Virus record (IMG/VR): IMGVR_UViG_3300017971_000770
Span: 1-23,574 of that record
From: a virus
DNA length: 23,574 nucleotides
Reading direction: 5' to 3' (one strand)
Below the pieces are notes generated by a model. The model worked only from the letters and a program-made list of their open reading frames with translations. It searched no databases and was not told the DNA's origin. Positions 1 to 20,443 of this stretch are shown here, one piece after another. Position numbers and translations under genes: made by a program. The stretch's first letter is position 1, and each line of letters starts with the position of its first letter.

Positions 1-22
1 GATTATACCTCGACGGTAGCTG

Positions 23-50
23 TTGACGCCACCGCCGGATATGCTATCTT
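23..50 (+). promoter_or_regulatory. Sigma-70-type extended -10 promoter for candidate ncRNA
   Basis: TTGACG at 23-28 matches the -35 consensus at five of six positions. It is separated by 16 bases from TATCTT at 45-50 (four of six, keeping the key first, second and last positions). A TG one base upstream of the hexamer (42-43) makes it an extended -10. A start near 57 (run of four G) would place the transcript exactly at the 5' strand of a stem formed with 143-148. Read by eye only; strength is inferred. Confidence 0.5.
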
Positions 51-56
51 GTAACT

Positions 57-468
57 GGGGCCGGCGATGGCTCTCCTGGAAATGCCGAACCGGGATCTTT
101 GTGAAGGATGACCGGCCGGCAACGATAGTTGGGACCTCGCTTGGCCCCGTCTTAGTTCATTCGCCCTCCCGCTTTCTAGGCAGAATAGTCAAACTGTCCG
201 GGCGTAGATTCTCTGCGGCGGTGCCCGAGCTGTGGACGGCCCAGCGGAGAAACCGAGACCGAAGCGCGGTAGAGTTGATCACCTGCATGGTGAGCACCCC
301 GCGGTAGCCACGAAAAAGAGATGAGCTGATCTGGGAGAAGTGGTAACGTCCGTGCGGACGTCGGGAAAACCCGCTGAGGCGAGGGCATCCGTTCATGGTT
401 TGCTCCATGAATCCGGGCTTTCGCGGAGGGGCGCCGTGCTGGTGTTCGTGCACCAGCCGGCGTTTTTT
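57..468 (+). ncRNA. Candidate structured noncoding RNA, about 410 nt
   Basis: No convincing coding frame lies here: the only forward frame in the 5' part begins at a TTG inside the -35 box and has no ribosome site. The stretch is rich in pairing. The 5' end GGGGCC (57-62) pairs perfectly with GGCCCC (143-148). Inside is a long hairpin 84-120 (GCCG/CGGC, CCGG/CCGG, AUCUUU/AAGGAU with two small internal loops). Another hairpin pairs 199-208 with 212-227. TCACC/GGTGA pairs at 279-293, ACGTCC/GGACGT at 346-361, CGGG/CCCG around AAAA at 362-373, and TTCATGG/CCATGAA at 392-411. It ends in an intrinsic terminator. It does not look like tmRNA (no tRNA-like 3' end), RNase P RNA or SRP RNA. The function is unknown. 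An alternative is a long 3' UTR of a gene left of the window, but the promoter at 23-50 argues for a separate unit. Confidence 0.42.
432..468 (+). terminator. Rho-independent terminator (plus strand)
   Basis: CGCCG (432-436) and GCTGGTG (438-444) pair with CACCAGC (451-457) and CGGCG (458-462), giving 12 base pairs with one bulged T at 437 and a six-base loop. Six T residues follow at 463-468. It is directional: the minus strand would have the A run before the stem, so it cannot stop the leftward late operon. It ends the candidate ncRNA and insulates the downstream plus-strand gene. Confidence 0.8.
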
Positions 469-601
469 CTCCACGTTGGGGTGGAATTGCGACTGCTCGC
501 TGGGTGGCTGGAAACTCTTCCTCTACTACCTTTATAGCATAATCCGCAGTCACTTACAAGCCCCCCGCTCGTAAAACCCCAGAAAAGACCACACAGAGCC
601 C

Positions 602-630
602 TTCCCGAATGTCCCGATCTCTGGTACTAT
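602..630 (+). promoter_or_regulatory. Possible extended -10 promoter for the exported-protein gene
   Basis: TACTAT at 625-630 matches four of six -10 positions and is preceded by TG at 622-623. The sequence 17 bases upstream (TTCCCG, 602-607) is a poor -35, so recognition would rest on the extended -10. Placed after the terminator at 432-468 and before the leader hairpin at 646-678, it is the most plausible start for the gene at 703. The rest of 469-601 shows nothing I can name. Confidence 0.3.
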
Positions 631-702: not shown

Positions 703-1434
703 ATGAAATATCAGGCGCTTTTCGCGTGCGTTTTTCTGGCTCCGTGTGTGGCATTGGCGCAGCAGGGTACGTTTTCCGGGCGAGCAGCCGAACTTCTCGG
801 CGGCCACCGGACGCCAGTTCGCGTGAAGCCACCGGCCGTACTCACGGTCAAAAACATCGAGAAGTACCTCGGGGAACAGCAGCAACTGCTCAGGGCAGCA
901 CAGCGTGGCCGCCCCTCACGGCTCGCGAAATCGCCAGTGTCGTACGATGTGAAGCGGAAACGCTTCACCTACCGAACGATTCAAAATAAGAAGGCAGAAG
1001 TGAAACGCCTGGAATCCCTGCTTGGCACCTTACCGCAGATTCACCGTTACGCCCATCAGGCGGGGCAAATCGGCAGCCTAACGGGCCCCCGCACGCGATT
1101 CACAATAGAGGAGATTGACACTGAAAAGGCATTTATCATCCAATACACGCCGCATGGTGGCTGGAACTTCTGGCTTGTCGGCCCAATCGTGAAGACATTC
1201 CAGAAGGGCCCCCTATTGGCTATGCGTAATGGTCGACCCGCCGAGCGTCAAATTCCCGGTGCCTTTAGAATTACAGGACAACAGGCGGGGCCCGCCCGTT
1301 ACAGCAAAGGATTGTTTGATGTCGTGGAGCCCTACAATCTAGCACCACACTACAAGAAACTGGGAATCGCAAGAAAAGAAAAAGACAAAAAGAAGACCGC
1401 GCCGAGAACACGCAGTAAGCCCAGAGAGAAGTAG
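703..1434 (+). CDS. Exported protein of unknown function, Lys/Arg-rich
   Basis: 243 residues. I prefer the ATG at 703 over the in-frame GTG at 697 because GGGGAGGG lies seven bases upstream of it. Residues 1-19 form a signal peptide (hydrophobic 5-19, likely cut after Ala-Leu-Ala). The mature protein begins with Gln-Gln and then a 13-residue motif GTFSGRAAELLGG (22-34) that also occurs near the tape-measure C-terminus in this window. The middle is mixed helix/strand with aromatic and basic residues. The last 20 residues are almost all Lys, Arg, Ser, Pro or Thr, suggesting a nucleic-acid or anionic-surface contact. It is the only protein gene on the plus strand and has its own promoter-like element and leader hairpin, the pattern of a phage moron. 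I do not recognise the family. Export and the gene boundaries are fairly sure; the role is unknown. Confidence 0.72.
   Translation: MKYQALFACVFLAPCVALAQQGTFSGRAAELLGGHRTPVRVKPPAVLTVKNIEKYLGEQQQLLRAAQRGRPSRLAKSPVSYDVKRKRFTYRTIQNKKAEVKRLESLLGTLPQIHRYAHQAGQIGSLTGPRTRFTIEEIDTEKAFIIQYTPHGGWNFWLVGPIVKTFQKGPLLAMRNGRPAERQIPGAFRITGQQAGPARYSKGLFDVVEPYNLAPHYKKLGIARKEKDKKKTAPRTRSKPREK
766..804 (+). repeat. Copy 1 of 39-bp coding motif shared with tape measure gene
   Basis: Encodes GTFSGRAAELLGG. The inverse-orientation copy at 7,334-7,372 (minus strand) encodes GTFSARAAGLLGG. The two share 30 of 39 bases and 11 of 13 residues, and five of the nine mismatches are silent third positions. No similarity continues on either side. 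Confidence 0.5.
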
Positions 1435-6404: not shown

Positions 6405-7217
6405 TTAAGCCCATGGATCGGGCAGCCCGAGGGCGGTAATATCAGCGTAATCGTAGACACGTTCAACGTGGGCAGCCAGCGGTCGGTCGGTCAGAGTGTT
6501 AGCCGCGCCATCTTCCTTCTTCTCGTATTCGATCCAAAGGTAATGATGACCTTCCTTATCGACGCCCGTGATATCGCCAATCGTCATTCCGGTCTTGGTT
6601 CTTGATGACGCAAAACGATAGGTAAGCCCGACCGGCTCCTCGCCCCGCTTCGCACCACTGGTACCCAGGAATAGGGTCTCGCCCTTGTCCCAGATTCGCC
6701 ACGGAGCATCATTGATCTTCGCGGTAGTGGATTCGAGGGTCTGTATGAAGCCATGGCTAGCGACAGTCTCATAACTAGCGTAGTGGGTCTCCTCCCAGGT
6801 GAAGACCGGCACCTTGATATCGACGCCCTCGACGGTCCGGCCGCTGCCATCTTGCCGAACGCCGATCGCGCCCTTGTGGTCTGGGGGCGTACCGGCTGCG
6901 GCGTAGCTCTGCACGTGTGCTAGGGCGTTTGTAATGTGGAAATTCTCGACGCCGATGTTGAACGACCAGGAGATATCCCCGGGCTCGCCCTGTTCCATCG
7001 TGCCGTAAATGACGGTTCCCGCCCAGATGCCGCCCCCCTCTTCGACGACTCGCGCATTCTCACGAACGAGACCCATCGTAACAGTCGGCGATGCGGCTAA
7101 CACGAGGCCGTAGGCGGTTGCCTTATCCTCAGTGCCACGCACTTGGTACTTTAGCAGCGCCTGAGGATTTCGCCCCTTAGTGACTTCCTGTCCGACAAGC
7201 TCGACGACGTAAGCCAT
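6405..7217 (-). CDS. Tail protein of unknown function downstream of tape measure
   Basis: 270 residues. The ATG at 7,217 shares one base with the tape-measure stop (TAATG), with AGGG about nine bases upstream, so the two are translationally coupled. An earlier in-frame codon would extend into the tape measure and is not needed. The protein is strand-rich, with no signal or membrane segment. It has recognisable blocks such as WSFNIGVENFHITNAL, VEGVDIKVPVFTWEETHY, LFLGTSGAKRGEEPVGLTYRF and GVDKEGHHYLWIEYEKKED. It resembles, from memory, a conserved hypothetical family in planctomycete prophages. The gene right after the tape measure usually encodes the distal tail (Dit) or a tip protein, so a tail-tip role is the best inference; no known Dit signature is visible. 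Confidence 0.7.
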   Translation of the reverse strand: MAYVVELVGQEVTKGRNPQALLKYQVRGTEDKATAYGLVLAASPTVTMGLVRENARVVEEGGGIWAGTVIYGTMEQGEPGDISWSFNIGVENFHITNALAHVQSYAAAGTPPDHKGAIGVRQDGSGRTVEGVDIKVPVFTWEETHYASYETVASHGFIQTLESTTAKINDAPWRIWDKGETLFLGTSGAKRGEEPVGLTYRFASSRTKTGMTIGDITGVDKEGHHYLWIEYEKKEDGAANTLTDRPLAAHVERVYDYADITALGLPDPWA

Positions 7218-9454
7218 TATGTAACACCCTCGACCCACTTCAGTTGATCGATCCGTTCCAGGTTGGCGTCAATCCGCTTCAGACTCCGGGCAGAGTCCTG
7301 ACTGGCCTTCCTAATGTCGGTGAGTGCGTTGCCGCCGCCAAGTAGGCCGGCAGCTCGGGCGGAAAATGTGCCGCGCGGTGACGCACCGGCGGCTGCCGGG
7401 GCACCGAAGACCGCGTCCCCGCCTTGCCTGGCCTTCGATGTGGCCACCTCCCGGGCTACTCTCTCGCGTGCCCGGGCGGCCTCTGTGCGAAGCTGGGAGA
7501 GCTTCGCCTCGGCTTCAGCTAGGCGGGCAGCCCCGGCCTTTAGTTCTGCGTCGTATCCCTGACGCCGCTTGACGTGGGCGGCTTCGCGTTCGCCCTCTAG
7601 AATGCCGGCGCGTTCCTTCCGGCTCGCCTCGATATCTGCTAGTCGCTCCGCCCGCCCCGTCTCGCGTGCGCGAGCTTCCCCGGCATATTGCTCCGCGAGG
7701 TTTTTCGCAACTTCCGCGCTATCGAGGCCCTCTGCCTTCGCGATAATCCAGCCGATCCCCTGCGCAACTTTTTCCTCCGCCCACTTCCACTTATCCACGA
7801 TGACGCCGGCAACTTCCACCCATGCCGCTTCGATCTTCGCGGCTCCGTTGACGAAAATCTCAGCGATGCCGTAAACCGCCTCAGTCCACGTCGCCATAAA
7901 GGCTTCCTTGAAGTCGATCCACTTCTCCTGGAGCCAGTTAATACCGCGTATCCACTCGGCGCGAAGTGACTCCCAGGCAATCTTGGCAGCCAGTGAAATG
8001 TCGCCGGCCGCCAGTGCGTCGGCGATTCCCTGGAAGACCGTGCGGGCCCAATCTCCAAGCTCACCGAAACGGTCGCCTAACCATTGTAGCGCTTTGCCGC
8101 CGGCACCGGATGCCTTTACGAGATAAGCCCCTAAGCTGATCACGGCAGCGGAAGCTAATCCGATTGGAGTAAGTAGGGCGCCTAAAACCGCACCCAGTGT
8201 GCTCAGGATCGCAACAGGCACACTCAGGGCGAAGGCAAGCAGTTTCGCCGCAACGCCGACAGTGAACAGTGCACCACCGAAAGCCAGTAGGCCAGCCGTT
8301 GCCGCCACGACGGCCACGACAAGTCCTTGATTCCGCTGAATCCATTCCGTCACGACACCAGCGAGAGCCGTTACTTTGGCGGCGACTGCGCGAATCACGG
8401 GCCCGAGTGTTTCACCGATGGCGATCTGCACACCCTCGACGGCGGACAGTAGCCGCCGAAAGGCTCCACCGAGCGTGTCGTCCATTATCGCGGCGGTCTT
8501 GCTTGCGGTCCCACTGGCGTTGTCGATTGCGTTGTTGAGTGCCTCGAAACGAGTAGCGGCCATCTTGAGGGCGCCGCCAATCGCACGCCTGCCGAAAAGC
8601 TTCTCGGCCCATGCCATGCGCTGCGCCGATCCCATGGTGCTCATTTGCCGGCCGATCTCGGTTAGGATATCGCCAGCAGGCCGCAAGTTACCGGCAGCGT
8701 CGACCGCCTCAATGTTCACCTCTCGCAGCATTTTCTGAACGTCCGTGTTCGAGAGTTGTAGGAAGAGGTTTCGGAGGGCCGTGCCGGCCATTGTGCCCTT
8801 GATGCCCATGTTAGCCATGGTGCCCAGCGCCTTACTGACACTCTCGATTGACTCGCCGGCCTCGGCGGCCATTGGCACCGCATACTTCAGCGACTCACCT
8901 AAGTTGGTCAAGGTTTGCGATGAATTATTGGCGGCCGCGACCAGAACGTCTGAAACCCTTTGCATTTCGGTGGCGTCAAGGTTGAATCCGCGTAGTGCAG
9001 CGGCAGCAATTTCGGCAGCCTCCGCAAGCTCGGTCCCTGTTGCCCTCGCTAGATTGAGAATGGCGGGCGTCGCTGCCTGAATTTCGCCCGGCTGAAAACC
9101 CGCGCGCCCAAGCTCGGTCATGCCTCTGGCAACTTGAGCGGCTGTGTAAGACGTTGTACGCCCGAGCTCTTTCGCCTGCTCCGTCAATCTCCGGAACTGA
9201 TCTTCCGTCGCGCCAGTGACGGCACGCACTACCGCCATCTGGTCGGAGAAGTCCGCGAACGTTTTGGTGCTAAAAGCCACGGGCGTCAAAGCAGCCGCCG
9301 AAACGGCAGCAAGTCGTCGCCCTAGATTCTGGGCCGCGCTTCCTAATGCTCGGAGTTTTTGCTCAGCCGCCTTCAAGCCTCGCGTGAAGCGATTGTCTCG
9401 CAGGTACAGCTCGACATAGGCAGCGCCGGCTTTGATTTCTGCGGCTGAGGGCAT
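7217..9454 (-). CDS. Tail tape measure protein, TP901-like
   Basis: 745 residues, an ATG start three bases after the chaperone stop. Residues 65-330 match the TP901-type tape-measure core (FADFSDQMAVVRAVTGATEDQF, MTELGRAGF, LRNLFLQLSNTDVQKML, then the LFGRRAIGGAL block). A long hydrophobic stretch at about 375-447 is typical of tape measures and may enter the host membrane during DNA delivery. Residues 590-675 are a charged Ala/Glu/Arg-rich coiled coil. Near the C-terminus (695-707) lies GTFSARAAGLLGG, shared with the exported protein at 703-1,434, and then a helical tail. Tape measures set tail length; at about 1.5 angstrom per residue for a helix this predicts a tail near 110 nm. It is preceded by the chaperone pair, the universal long-tail order. 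Confidence 0.92.
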   Translation of the reverse strand: MPSAAEIKAGAAYVELYLRDNRFTRGLKAAEQKLRALGSAAQNLGRRLAAVSAAALTPVAFSTKTFADFSDQMAVVRAVTGATEDQFRRLTEQAKELGRTTSYTAAQVARGMTELGRAGFQPGEIQAATPAILNLARATGTELAEAAEIAAAALRGFNLDATEMQRVSDVLVAAANNSSQTLTNLGESLKYAVPMAAEAGESIESVSKALGTMANMGIKGTMAGTALRNLFLQLSNTDVQKMLREVNIEAVDAAGNLRPAGDILTEIGRQMSTMGSAQRMAWAEKLFGRRAIGGALKMAATRFEALNNAIDNASGTASKTAAIMDDTLGGAFRRLLSAVEGVQIAIGETLGPVIRAVAAKVTALAGVVTEWIQRNQGLVVAVVAATAGLLAFGGALFTVGVAAKLLAFALSVPVAILSTLGAVLGALLTPIGLASAAVISLGAYLVKASGAGGKALQWLGDRFGELGDWARTVFQGIADALAAGDISLAAKIAWESLRAEWIRGINWLQEKWIDFKEAFMATWTEAVYGIAEIFVNGAAKIEAAWVEVAGVIVDKWKWAEEKVAQGIGWIIAKAEGLDSAEVAKNLAEQYAGEARARETGRAERLADIEASRKERAGILEGEREAAHVKRRQGYDAELKAGAARLAEAEAKLSQLRTEAARARERVAREVATSKARQGGDAVFGAPAAAGASPRGTFSARAAGLLGGGNALTDIRKASQDSARSLKRIDANLERIDQLKWVEGVT
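7334..7372 (-). repeat. Copy 2 of 39-bp coding motif shared with exported protein gene
   Basis: Encodes GTFSARAAGLLGG, residues 695-707 of the tape measure, just after a Pro/Ala/Gly hinge. Its partner is at 766-804 on the plus strand. Confidence 0.5.
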
Positions 9455-15323: not shown

Positions 15324-15899
15324 AGCGTAATCTTCCCTTTCAAAGGTTACGGGGATTGTCTCCCCCTCTGAAAATGTCGTCTCGGTGTGCATGTCGGCGC
15401 CGTAGGGGCAGACTGCGGCACCACGCAGAGGCCACTGACGCACTACGACGCCGGGGCCCTCAAATTCGCGGCCATTGACCTCAGTAACTTCGCCGCGTTG
15501 AACTTCCTGAATCCGGATGCCATCGCCGCCGAAGTTGATCGAGGCCTCGTAGGGCACGCCGGCTTCCGCCTTGTGTTTCACCTCGCTTGCCCGATCGCCA
15601 GGCTGATACGGTACCAGCCGACCGGCGGCTTCGAGGTCGCCCGATTCCGTGGTAAAGGTGTCGAGAAACCCGATTACTTCCTCGTCACGGTGGCAATAGT
15701 CGAGCGGGATGGTGGGTTTATGCAAACGCATTCCGGCGAAATCATGGATAATCCGCCCCCAGTACCAGTGTTCGATCGGCTGCCCACTTCGTGCGGTAAG
15801 TCGCACGGCCGGATTTCCTTTGTCCTGACTGGCAAACTCGAGGGCCGACGCCCGGAATTGGCACGCCGCACGCGGGATTTTGCGCTGTTCATTGTTCAT
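14820..15899 (-). CDS. Prohead protease with C-terminal scaffold domain
   Basis: 359 residues from the ATG at 15,899, with AAGGGAAG upstream; its start overlaps the portal stop by 11 bases. Residues 1-190 look like a serine prohead protease of the HK97/S78 type: PLDYCHRDEEVIGFLD gives a candidate catalytic His70, and GVPYEASINF a candidate nucleophile Ser120, with the usual strands around them. Residues 195-240 are an acidic Pro/Glu/Thr-rich linker. Residues 240-310 are a coiled-coil, Glu/Lys-rich scaffold-like region (TQEEFDRHNEV, LKAENKQIKAKLAAVD), followed by a flexible acidic tail. Fusion of protease and scaffold with an internal start mirrors lambda C/Nu3. It should cut itself and the scaffold during head maturation. 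Confidence 0.82.
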   Translation of the reverse strand: MNNEQRKIPRAACQFRASALEFASQDKGNPAVRLTARSGQPIEHWYWGRIIHDFAGMRLHKPTIPLDYCHRDEEVIGFLDTFTTESGDLEAAGRLVPYQPGDRASEVKHKAEAGVPYEASINFGGDGIRIQEVQRGEVTEVNGREFEGPGVVVRQWPLRGAAVCPYGADMHTETTFSEGETIPVTFEREDYAMSKEQDQPADNEAVTPDTETTDAAELAAPTSEVPESAEALEQPEVPTAFLTQEEFDRHNEVTEQGLRAECKRFLDVFGPQGGEWYAEGLSFADAQERNTEALKAENKQIKAKLAAVDRGEEEPVDFQAGSEETPDGKASQAVVDNHGDGLAPLIAFNASKMPDPSRN

Positions 15900-18463: not shown

Positions 18464-19801
18464 CTACTTCTTGGCCGGCTTCTTGACTTCCGCCCGGACC
18501 ACCTTGCGAGCTTCTGCTCTGGCCTTCTTGGCAGTATCGGTGCCCACGGCGTCGGCAACCTTGTAGGCGATGTTGTCTAGAATCGCGTCATCCCAGTTGC
18601 CGGGGATTACGTCCGTCAACTTATCGACGGCGCCGGCGATCGTATGGGCATACCCGCGAGCCATGCGAACCCCGAAAAAGACCAGAATACCACCCAGAAG
18701 CCCGCCACCGATCCCGATCTTCGCTAACAGCGACTTTAGCCCGCCGAGCACTACGCCTCCAACGGACCCGCCGAGCCCCTTGGTGATCTTCTCTGCGATT
18801 CCGACTTGAGCATCCTCGACGCCTTTCTCGAGCGACTGGAGCTCTGCCTGTACGGCCCGTCCGATCGCGTCGAGTGTCCGATCTTGCTCCGAGAGGTGTC
18901 GATCGAGCTGCTGGAACTCACTGCTCCCCATCGACGGGCCCGCTAAACCGCCACTGGAACCGCCCGGCAGCGTCGGCCATACCCGATCAACTTTGTCCTC
19001 TAGCCGGTCCATCCTGCGCTCTTCGTATCGGCGATATGGCAGAAGCTGACTCGGATTAGGCTGCGGCGCCGGGCATCCCCGGGGGCCGCACTGACTCGGC
19101 TCTGTGGGGGCCAGCTTCGGTGAATCGTACGTCCAGGCTGGCGCCGGCGAATGAGCCCAGCCGCCGCCTGCCGTCTGCGTGAATCGCAAAGTCCGGTAGA
19201 GGTTTTCGAGACTGACCGCAAAGCCTCGGCTCTGTCCGCTGTTTTGGCGCCCCCAGATCAGGCCAACAATTCGTTCGCCCTTGGCGTCGCAGACTGCCGA
19301 CCCACTACGGCCGTTGGCTGGCGGTGGCGTGAAACAGAGGTTGCCGTCGTCGTAGCCGAGAACGTGCCCCTTCCACCCCGTAGCCCACGCCCCCTTCGCA
19401 CATCCGGCCGACGTGATTGTGTCACCGGGATTCAATTTCGTGCCCCGTGGCGCAATCGGGATAACCCGGGGCAGGTGGCCTCCGAATGACGTCTGTGGAA
19501 CGGAGACAATCGCCACATCGACGCCGGCACCGCGGGCAATCACTGCACCGGACAGCCCCGCCGACTGGTGACCCTGTTTCCAAAAGATACACTTGACGGC
19601 ATTGGCATTGCCGACGACGTGTCGATTGGTCAGGATGAAGGCCCGTCCCTGGCTGATCTCGAAAACGCAACCGGTACCCGTGCTACCGTCCGGGGCGTGA
19701 ATTCGACACGTCGCGTCCAGCGTCTCCGAGACACCGGCGTGTGAGTAGTCGGGGGCTCCAATCAGAGCCGCGACGACCAGCAAAAGAGACAGTGGGCGCA
19801 T
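18464..19801 (-). CDS. Exported, membrane-anchored trypsin-like serine protease
   Basis: 445 residues from the ATG at 19,801 (GGGAAAG upstream); a TTG at 19,834 would only add ahead of the signal peptide. Residues 1-22 form a signal peptide ending Tyr-Ser-His-Ala. Residues 25-205 hold a chymotrypsin-fold domain with His61 (LTNRHVV), Asp95 (GVDVAIV) and Ser166 (NGRSGSAV), plus six Cys that could form disulfides. A Pro-rich stretch, a basic segment and an amphipathic helix (about 295-330) follow, then a transmembrane segment at 361-381 and a Lys/Arg-rich inner tail ending KKPAKK. Topology is therefore periplasmic or outside protease, one membrane pass, cytoplasmic tail. A phage could use it for envelope processing, lysis timing or superinfection exclusion. 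The substrate is unknown; the active-site triad appears intact. Confidence 0.78.
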   Translation of the reverse strand: MRPLSLLLVVAALIGAPDYSHAGVSETLDATCRIHAPDGSTGTGCVFEISQGRAFILTNRHVVGNANAVKCIFWKQGHQSAGLSGAVIARGAGVDVAIVSVPQTSFGGHLPRVIPIAPRGTKLNPGDTITSAGCAKGAWATGWKGHVLGYDDGNLCFTPPPANGRSGSAVCDAKGERIVGLIWGRQNSGQSRGFAVSLENLYRTLRFTQTAGGGWAHSPAPAWTYDSPKLAPTEPSQCGPRGCPAPQPNPSQLLPYRRYEERRMDRLEDKVDRVWPTLPGGSSGGLAGPSMGSSEFQQLDRHLSEQDRTLDAIGRAVQAELQSLEKGVEDAQVGIAEKITKGLGGSVGGVVLGGLKSLLAKIGIGGGLLGGILVFFGVRMARGYAHTIAGAVDKLTDVIPGNWDDAILDNIAYKVADAVGTDTAKKARAEARKVVRAEVKKPAKK

Positions 19802-19849
19802 GGTTCTTTCTTTCCCTTTGAGAACAGACAGCAAAACTGAGAAGAGAGA

Positions 19850-20443
19850 CTAGAAGCTATCAACTGTAACATTCAGCGGCATTAACCAGTCACGCAGATT
19901 CTTAATTGCCCTTGCGTGTATTCTGTGAATGCGCCGAACGCTCAAACCTAAATGTCCGGCAATGTGTCGCGCAGAATATCCCAGGCAATACCGAAGCCGC
20001 AAAACTTCCTGCTGTCTAATCGTGAGTGCTCCGAATGCCGCCCGCATCTGCGGGTCCCGAAAACTGAATTCCTGACGGCGTATCGCTGGTACCGGTTCAC
20101 CTCGATTGACGCGGGCTGCACCATGAATGTAGGCTCGCAATTGCTTGCGTACGCAGAGCTTGACGTACGGTTCTAGGTAACCGCGTTTCGGATCAAAGCC
20201 CGCCACTGCCGTAACCGCTGTAATCTGCGATAACGATTCCCGCTCGCTGGCATCGATGTTGTAGCATCCCCATTCTTCGATTAACCGCCAGAGAATCCGC
20301 TTGACTTTGGCAATCACTAGAATCGTGAGCTGCTCCTTGGCATCCAGGTCGCCCGCGTCAGTGCGTGCCTTTAGTAGCTTTTCTGTTTTCTCGGATGACC
20401 ACGCAGACGGTAGCGGCGGTAGAATCGACTCAGCAACTTCCAC
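19850..20443 (-). CDS. Sigma-70-family RNA polymerase sigma factor
   Basis: 197 residues from a GTG at 20,443, five bases after AGGGAG. Residues 36-115 resemble region 2: a helix block, then AVAGFDPKRGYLEPYVKLCVRKQLRAYIHG, which keeps the FDP-x-RG core-binding motif. Residues 138-186 are region 4 (LTIRQQEVLRLRYCLGYSARHIAGHLGLSVRRIHRIHARAIKNLRDWL) with a clear helix-turn-helix for the -35 element. Region 3 is almost absent, giving a minimal sigma factor. It is placed between packaging and head genes, so it probably drives late genes; its own promoter elements are not convincing. Host-like ECF function is less likely given region 2 spacing and the phage operon. Confidence 0.85.
   Translation of the reverse strand: MEVAESILPPLPSAWSSEKTEKLLKARTDAGDLDAKEQLTILVIAKVKRILWRLIEEWGCYNIDASERESLSQITAVTAVAGFDPKRGYLEPYVKLCVRKQLRAYIHGAARVNRGEPVPAIRRQEFSFRDPQMRAAFGALTIRQQEVLRLRYCLGYSARHIAGHLGLSVRRIHRIHARAIKNLRDWLMPLNVTVDSF

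Follow-up and report, generated by a model that had tools for sequence, protein, structure and literature searches.

A predicted non-coding RNA facing the excisionase-integrase promoter of a temperate phage: a candidate antisense or convergent-promoter element

Introduction

Lysis/lysogeny switches have been worked out in detail for only a few phages, nearly all of them with protein repressors. In P2-like phages, such as P2 and 186 (pR-pL), the lytic and lysogenic promoters stand face to face, and the Cox and Apl proteins are both excisionases and regulators (PMC7498355). Non-coding RNAs have also been described from phages and prophages. The PhiRv2 prophage of Mycobacterium tuberculosis carries the small RNA (sRNA) ncRv12659, which is 173 nt long and starts 62 nt downstream of the start site of the opposing integrase; it lacks an intrinsic terminator and extends beyond the prophage into the DNA of the host (PMC3861185). 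The lambda OOP RNA and STnc6030 of BTP1 are antisense RNAs with cII and late genes as their targets (PMC7067206), and among the large non-coding RNAs, ROOL and GOLLD occur in phages and prophages (PMC12286853).

Here we examine a short non-coding gap beside the integration genes of a phage from IMG/VR. An initial annotation, made from the sequence, had described it as a candidate structured RNA; we compare it with the systems above.

Results

The window, which is the whole stretch of DNA analyzed here, comprises 23,574 bases, and the same phage is also found in IMG/VR as a 41,103-bp contig (3300028840_002380). Positions 1 to 23574 of the window correspond to 17538 to 41103 of that contig, with 12 substitutions and one 8-bp gap between the two copies. 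In the longer contig (L002), an excisionase gene (xis) starts on the minus strand 1 bp outside the window's left edge, with a GAGG ribosome site 7 nt upstream of its ATG; its product matches HTH_17 and TIGR01764 above the cut-off. A tyrosine integrase (PF00589) follows on the same strand, and both genes run away from the RNA unit, with an ERF recombination protein, a RecD2-type helicase, and other early genes lying beyond the integrase. To the right of the RNA come ORF245 on the plus strand, which matched no protein family, and then a minus-strand late operon (portal, GP7-type capsid, and GpA-type terminase). The phage carrying the RNA unit is temperate. No HTH_3 or S24 domain of a lambda-type CI repressor was found in the 41-kb contig, which may be incomplete. 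A 23-bp direct repeat around the 3' end of the integrase gene was considered as an attachment site and turned out to be a simple TGCTTCGCCTT-type repeat.

Other genes of this phage deserve mention in their own right. The early genes left of the window include a FeeM-type N-acyl amino acid synthase (PF21926, E = 1e-22; L004, 7770 to 8567), and two ParB-like nuclease/partition proteins lie side by side in the early region (L002, 1929 to 3472). Between the terminase and the portal are a trypsin-like peptidase and a sigma-factor/regulator-like protein (window positions 18464 to 19834 and 19850 to 20443). The apparent signal peptide of ORF245 is followed by GTFSGRAAELLGG, and nearly the same motif, GTFSARAAGLLGG, is found close to the end of the tape-measure protein of the tail (7217 to 9454).

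TABLE 1 Features of the RNA unit and its surroundings, in window coordinates
Feature	Position	Strand	Details
Predicted xis-int leader	1..524	-	Antisense to the whole RNA; inferred from gene order (L002) and P_minus
Leader hairpin, 10 bp	11..37	-	Just upstream of the GAGG ribosome site of xis; -18.6 kcal/mol, P = 1.0
P_RNA promoter	23..50	+	TTGACG-16-TATCTT, extended TG; second-best sigma-70-like site in the 41-kb contig
Predicted non-coding RNA, ~412 nt	57..468	+	Promoter, terminator, no coding frame
5' structural domain	57..148	+	z, -3.5 to -3.6; pair probabilities, 0.88 to 1.00
Eight bases AAGGATGA missing from the near-identical contig	104..111	+	3' side of the tip hairpin; lower stem kept
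3' region	164..430	+	Possibly closed by 164-169/425-430; hairpins at 346-361, 379-424, and 392-411
Intrinsic terminator	431..468	+	Stem 431-445/450-463, then T6; -26.7 kcal/mol
P_minus, facing promoter	531..559	-	TTGTAA-17-TATAAA, extended TG; predicted start at ~524
Candidate ORF245 promoter	602..630	+	TTCCCG-17-TACTAT, extended TG; rank 19 in the contig
ORF245	703..1434	+	Apparent signal peptide; coding signal in codon scan; same strand as the RNA

The initial annotation had read the left end of the window as a promoter-to-terminator unit of about 410 nt that encodes no protein, and each of these elements was recovered. The promoter was found with its extended TG and both boxes, and the near-perfect terminator placed at 432 to 468 is a stable stem followed by T6 (Table 1). 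Across positions ~1 to 690, none of the frames scored like the phage's genes for codon signal; the same scan does detect xis, the integrase, ORF245, and the late genes as coding. Moreover, the near-identical contig lacks 8 nt at 104 to 111, and because this deletion is not a multiple of three, it breaks the plus-strand frame at 23 to 307. The possibility that the unit could be the 3' untranslated region of a gene to its left was rejected, since the gene there is xis, which diverges from the unit.

The strand opposite the RNA is open for 105 amino acids, and it may be that a small early protein is encoded there ahead of xis (157 to 474, or from an ATG at 396; 79 to 105 amino acids), the plus-strand RNA being incidental. 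The ATG at 396 has a GGAG 6 nt upstream, GC content by codon position (0.61/0.52/0.69) resembles that of the genes, and phrog_25240 gives a weak full-length match (E = 0.003). However, the codon score of -0.03 is at the bottom of the real genes and ordinary among shadow ORFs, phrog_25240 also matches 5 of 14 control genomes as well as an unrelated gene of the same phage, and no relative was found by tblastn or scan. We consider such a protein improbable.

At the other end of the unit, the minus strand carries a second promoter-like site, P_minus (559 to 531), that the initial annotation had missed. A position-weight scan of the 41-kb contig ranked P_minus as the best sigma-70-like site (score, 13.98), followed by P_RNA (13.30) and a next site at 12.4; the scores come from a matrix that approximates Escherichia coli promoters. 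A simpler promoter scan missed P_minus, whose -10 box ends in A. The two promoters, which are 481 bp apart and point toward each other, flank the RNA exactly and have in common the 8-mer TATGCTAT, which occurs nowhere else in the 41-kb contig on either strand. It is important to note that 1.4 sites of such a score are expected per shuffled 41-kb genome, so that the count is ordinary and only the placement is remarkable: two such sites fell within a 700-bp region in 0.1% of local shuffles.

Because the minus strand carries all assigned genes of the 41-kb contig except ORF245, xis-int would naturally be transcribed from P_minus. A minus-strand transcript from it would cross the whole RNA gene before reaching xis-int, as expected of the partner of a cis-antisense RNA, and the RNA is predicted from the sequence to be complementary to ~410 of the ~520 leader bases. 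The initial annotation had placed the unit at the distal end of a late operon on the opposite strand; this reading is incomplete, in that the unit lies in the xis-int leader region, where it is overlapped on the other strand. The leader hairpin at 11 to 37 surrounds the -35 box of P_RNA and is outside the antisense RNA coverage. Likewise, the RNA starts at 57 and is hence predicted not to cover the xis ribosome site; its effect on xis would therefore come only via interference, premature termination, or leader processing. We also looked between the promoters for excisionase-type direct repeats one helix turn apart, and the longest chain was 2, as in shuffles.

On the plus strand, the next gene is ORF245, and attenuators usually have this layout, with a structured RNA and then an intrinsic terminator ahead of a gene. 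The unit could thus be a structured attenuated leader (riboregulator) of ORF245, on the same strand, in which transcription stops at 468 unless a signal allows read-through to 703. Yet ORF245 has a promoter-like site of its own at 602 to 630, and the 235-nt gap to the gene is long. Neither a riboswitch nor any other leader in Rfam matched, and there was no conspicuous alternative pairing that could act as an antiterminator. We regard a leader of ORF245 as a serious alternative but a rather unlikely one.

With respect to folding, better-than-chance stability is confined to the 5' domain (57 to 148) and the terminator. The exact pairing of 57-62 with 143-148 that had been noted in the initial annotation has a probability of 1.00 and closes a domain with stems at 64-67/137-140, 83-87/117-121, and 90-93/112-115 and a tip hairpin at 95-100/104-109. 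Of the 92-nt windows across this genome, ~0.3% match the z score of the domain. The RNA body from 149 to 428, on the other hand, is no more stable than shuffled sequence (z, -0.3), and the RNA with the terminator left out (57 to 428) has a z of -1.2, against a baseline of -0.25 (standard deviation, 1.2) in sampled 372-nt windows of the phage. The segment from 301 to 428 is slightly above chance stability (z, -1.9). About half of the bases pair at a probability of >0.9, but GC-rich DNA gives the same anyway. Thus, the organized fold claimed earlier is upheld for the 5' domain (z, about -3.6) and the terminator and fails for the body; as the body folds much like shuffled sequence, the "at least seven strong inverted repeats" on which the claim drew are mostly an effect of GC-rich DNA.

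A body of this kind would also be seen if there were no functional RNA at all and the gap were a regulatory or attachment (attP) segment in which the promoter and terminator matches are coincidental. Promoter consensus matches are common by chance, and the region adjoins xis. Nevertheless, one short non-coding gap contains both top-ranked promoter sites and the strongest terminator in the vicinity, in the right order, and we judge this explanation very improbable.

ROOL and GOLLD usually lie near tRNA islands, and no tRNA or tmRNA was found in the window. The Rfam search that the initial annotation had proposed (cmscan of positions 1 to 1500, both strands, E ≤ 5) returned only two chance matches, both outside the unit, and no family matched L002 or the gap of a second locus (L033) on either strand. 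On these grounds, together with the z of -0.3 for the body, membership in ROOL, GOLLD, or OLE, which the annotation had named for comparison, is not supported, and neither is a large ornate RNA of that kind.

Searches for homologues gave a similar picture. Nothing resembling the RNA was found by blastn in GenBank phages and plasmids, and exact 21-mer scans of IMG/VR and GTDB recovered only the near-identical contig of the same phage. Relatives were collected by a capsid scan (15 loci, one of which is the phage's own contig) and a tail-protein scan (80 loci). A covariance model built from the two copies was compared with 97 loci and with 34 contigs over their full length, the latter being 33 relatives plus the longer contig of the phage itself; it detected no homologue, the best non-self matches being noise. 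The collection of homologous contigs suggested earlier therefore yielded one near-identical 41-kb copy but no independent homologue. Neither blastn nor the covariance model gave a recognizable form of the RNA in the relatives, most of whose contigs stop before the region, so that absence is weak evidence. A 277-amino-acid tail-region protein (window positions 6405 to 7238), with no PHROG match, has relatives in 218 IMG/VR stretches, a wide uncultured phage group.

One relative, L033, has its late genes followed by ~400 bp of non-coding DNA (15451 to 15851), a small gene, and the integrase. In this gap, a promoter-like site with TTGACG points away from the small gene, and there are terminator-like hairpins on the strand opposite to the integrase; the two promoter-like sites of L033 rank only ~4th and 15th in that locus. 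The layout is the same, but the gap is not alignable with the window and has no model support, and we rejected it as a homologue of the RNA; L033 backs the layout weakly and does not back homology. In another relative, L122 (IMGVR 3300033141_006319), the left end (positions 1 to 1000) holds dockerin-like coding sequence and a frame resembling a tRNA read backwards, beside an integrase. L122 is probably a prophage still within host DNA and so offers a clue to the host group.

Prophages are known to express trans-acting small RNAs (PMC7067206), and the unit, with its own promoter and terminator and a significant 5' domain, might be a free-standing RNA of this type that is accessory to the lysogen, its overlap with the xis-int leader being incidental. 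Against this, the searched collections contain no homologue, there is no complementarity of >11 nt elsewhere in the phage, and the facing promoter offers a simpler role. We think a trans-acting role unlikely.

Discussion

The reading we favor, with about even confidence, is that the RNA unit is a cis-antisense RNA or convergent-promoter element controlling xis-int, and its position and sequence suggest that it probably belongs to the lysis/lysogeny switch of the phage. The RNA would be made from P_RNA (23 to 50) to the terminator at 468, face to face with the promoter of the xis-int operon (559 to 531, minus strand), and the terminator would stop it ~60 nt short of the opposing start site. The minus-strand transcript would start at ~524 with a leader of ~520 nt complementary to the entire RNA, and the two transcripts would therefore be mutually exclusive or self-interfering. 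The mode might be transcriptional interference by colliding RNA polymerases or, alternatively, pairing of the leader with the RNA's stable 5' stem-loop, which would bring about leader processing or termination. Activity of P_RNA would lower Xis and Int, and perhaps the early genes behind them, and would thus act as the lysogeny-side arm of the switch.

A further-reaching version, in which the phage has no protein repressor on the lysogenic arm and the RNA itself determines lysogeny or immunity, blocking the xis-int/early operon in cis and a superinfecting phage in trans, seems to us quite improbable. If antisense or convergent-promoter control of xis-int is true, RNA- and interference-based control of integration extends to a new lineage, an uncultured phage group.

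Unlike ROOL, GOLLD, and OLE, the unit has no Rfam match, no tRNA in its window, and no significant structure in most of its body, and it is smaller than GOLLD. It resembles P2 and 186 in having a pair of facing promoters next to an excisionase gene, with the opposing transcript crossing the early leader, where transcriptional interference is expected. However, the spacing of 40 to 60 bp in P2-like phages (PMC7498355) compares with ~480 bp between the promoters here, and excisionase-type direct repeats were not found. Further, the opposing transcript of P2 and 186 is a repressor mRNA, whereas here it is a predicted terminated non-coding RNA: the RNA has no coding frame, and the contig has no HTH_3 or S24 domain.

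The remaining likenesses are to phage RNAs. Like OOP and STnc6030, the RNA predicted here is a discrete phage antisense RNA directed against an opposite-strand phage transcript, although its target would be the xis-int leader and it has no sequence relation to either. Like ncRv12659, it is a phage non-coding RNA that would start next to an integrase promoter on the opposite strand; in contrast to ncRv12659, it is predicted to be ~410 nt long, terminated, and wholly inside the phage.
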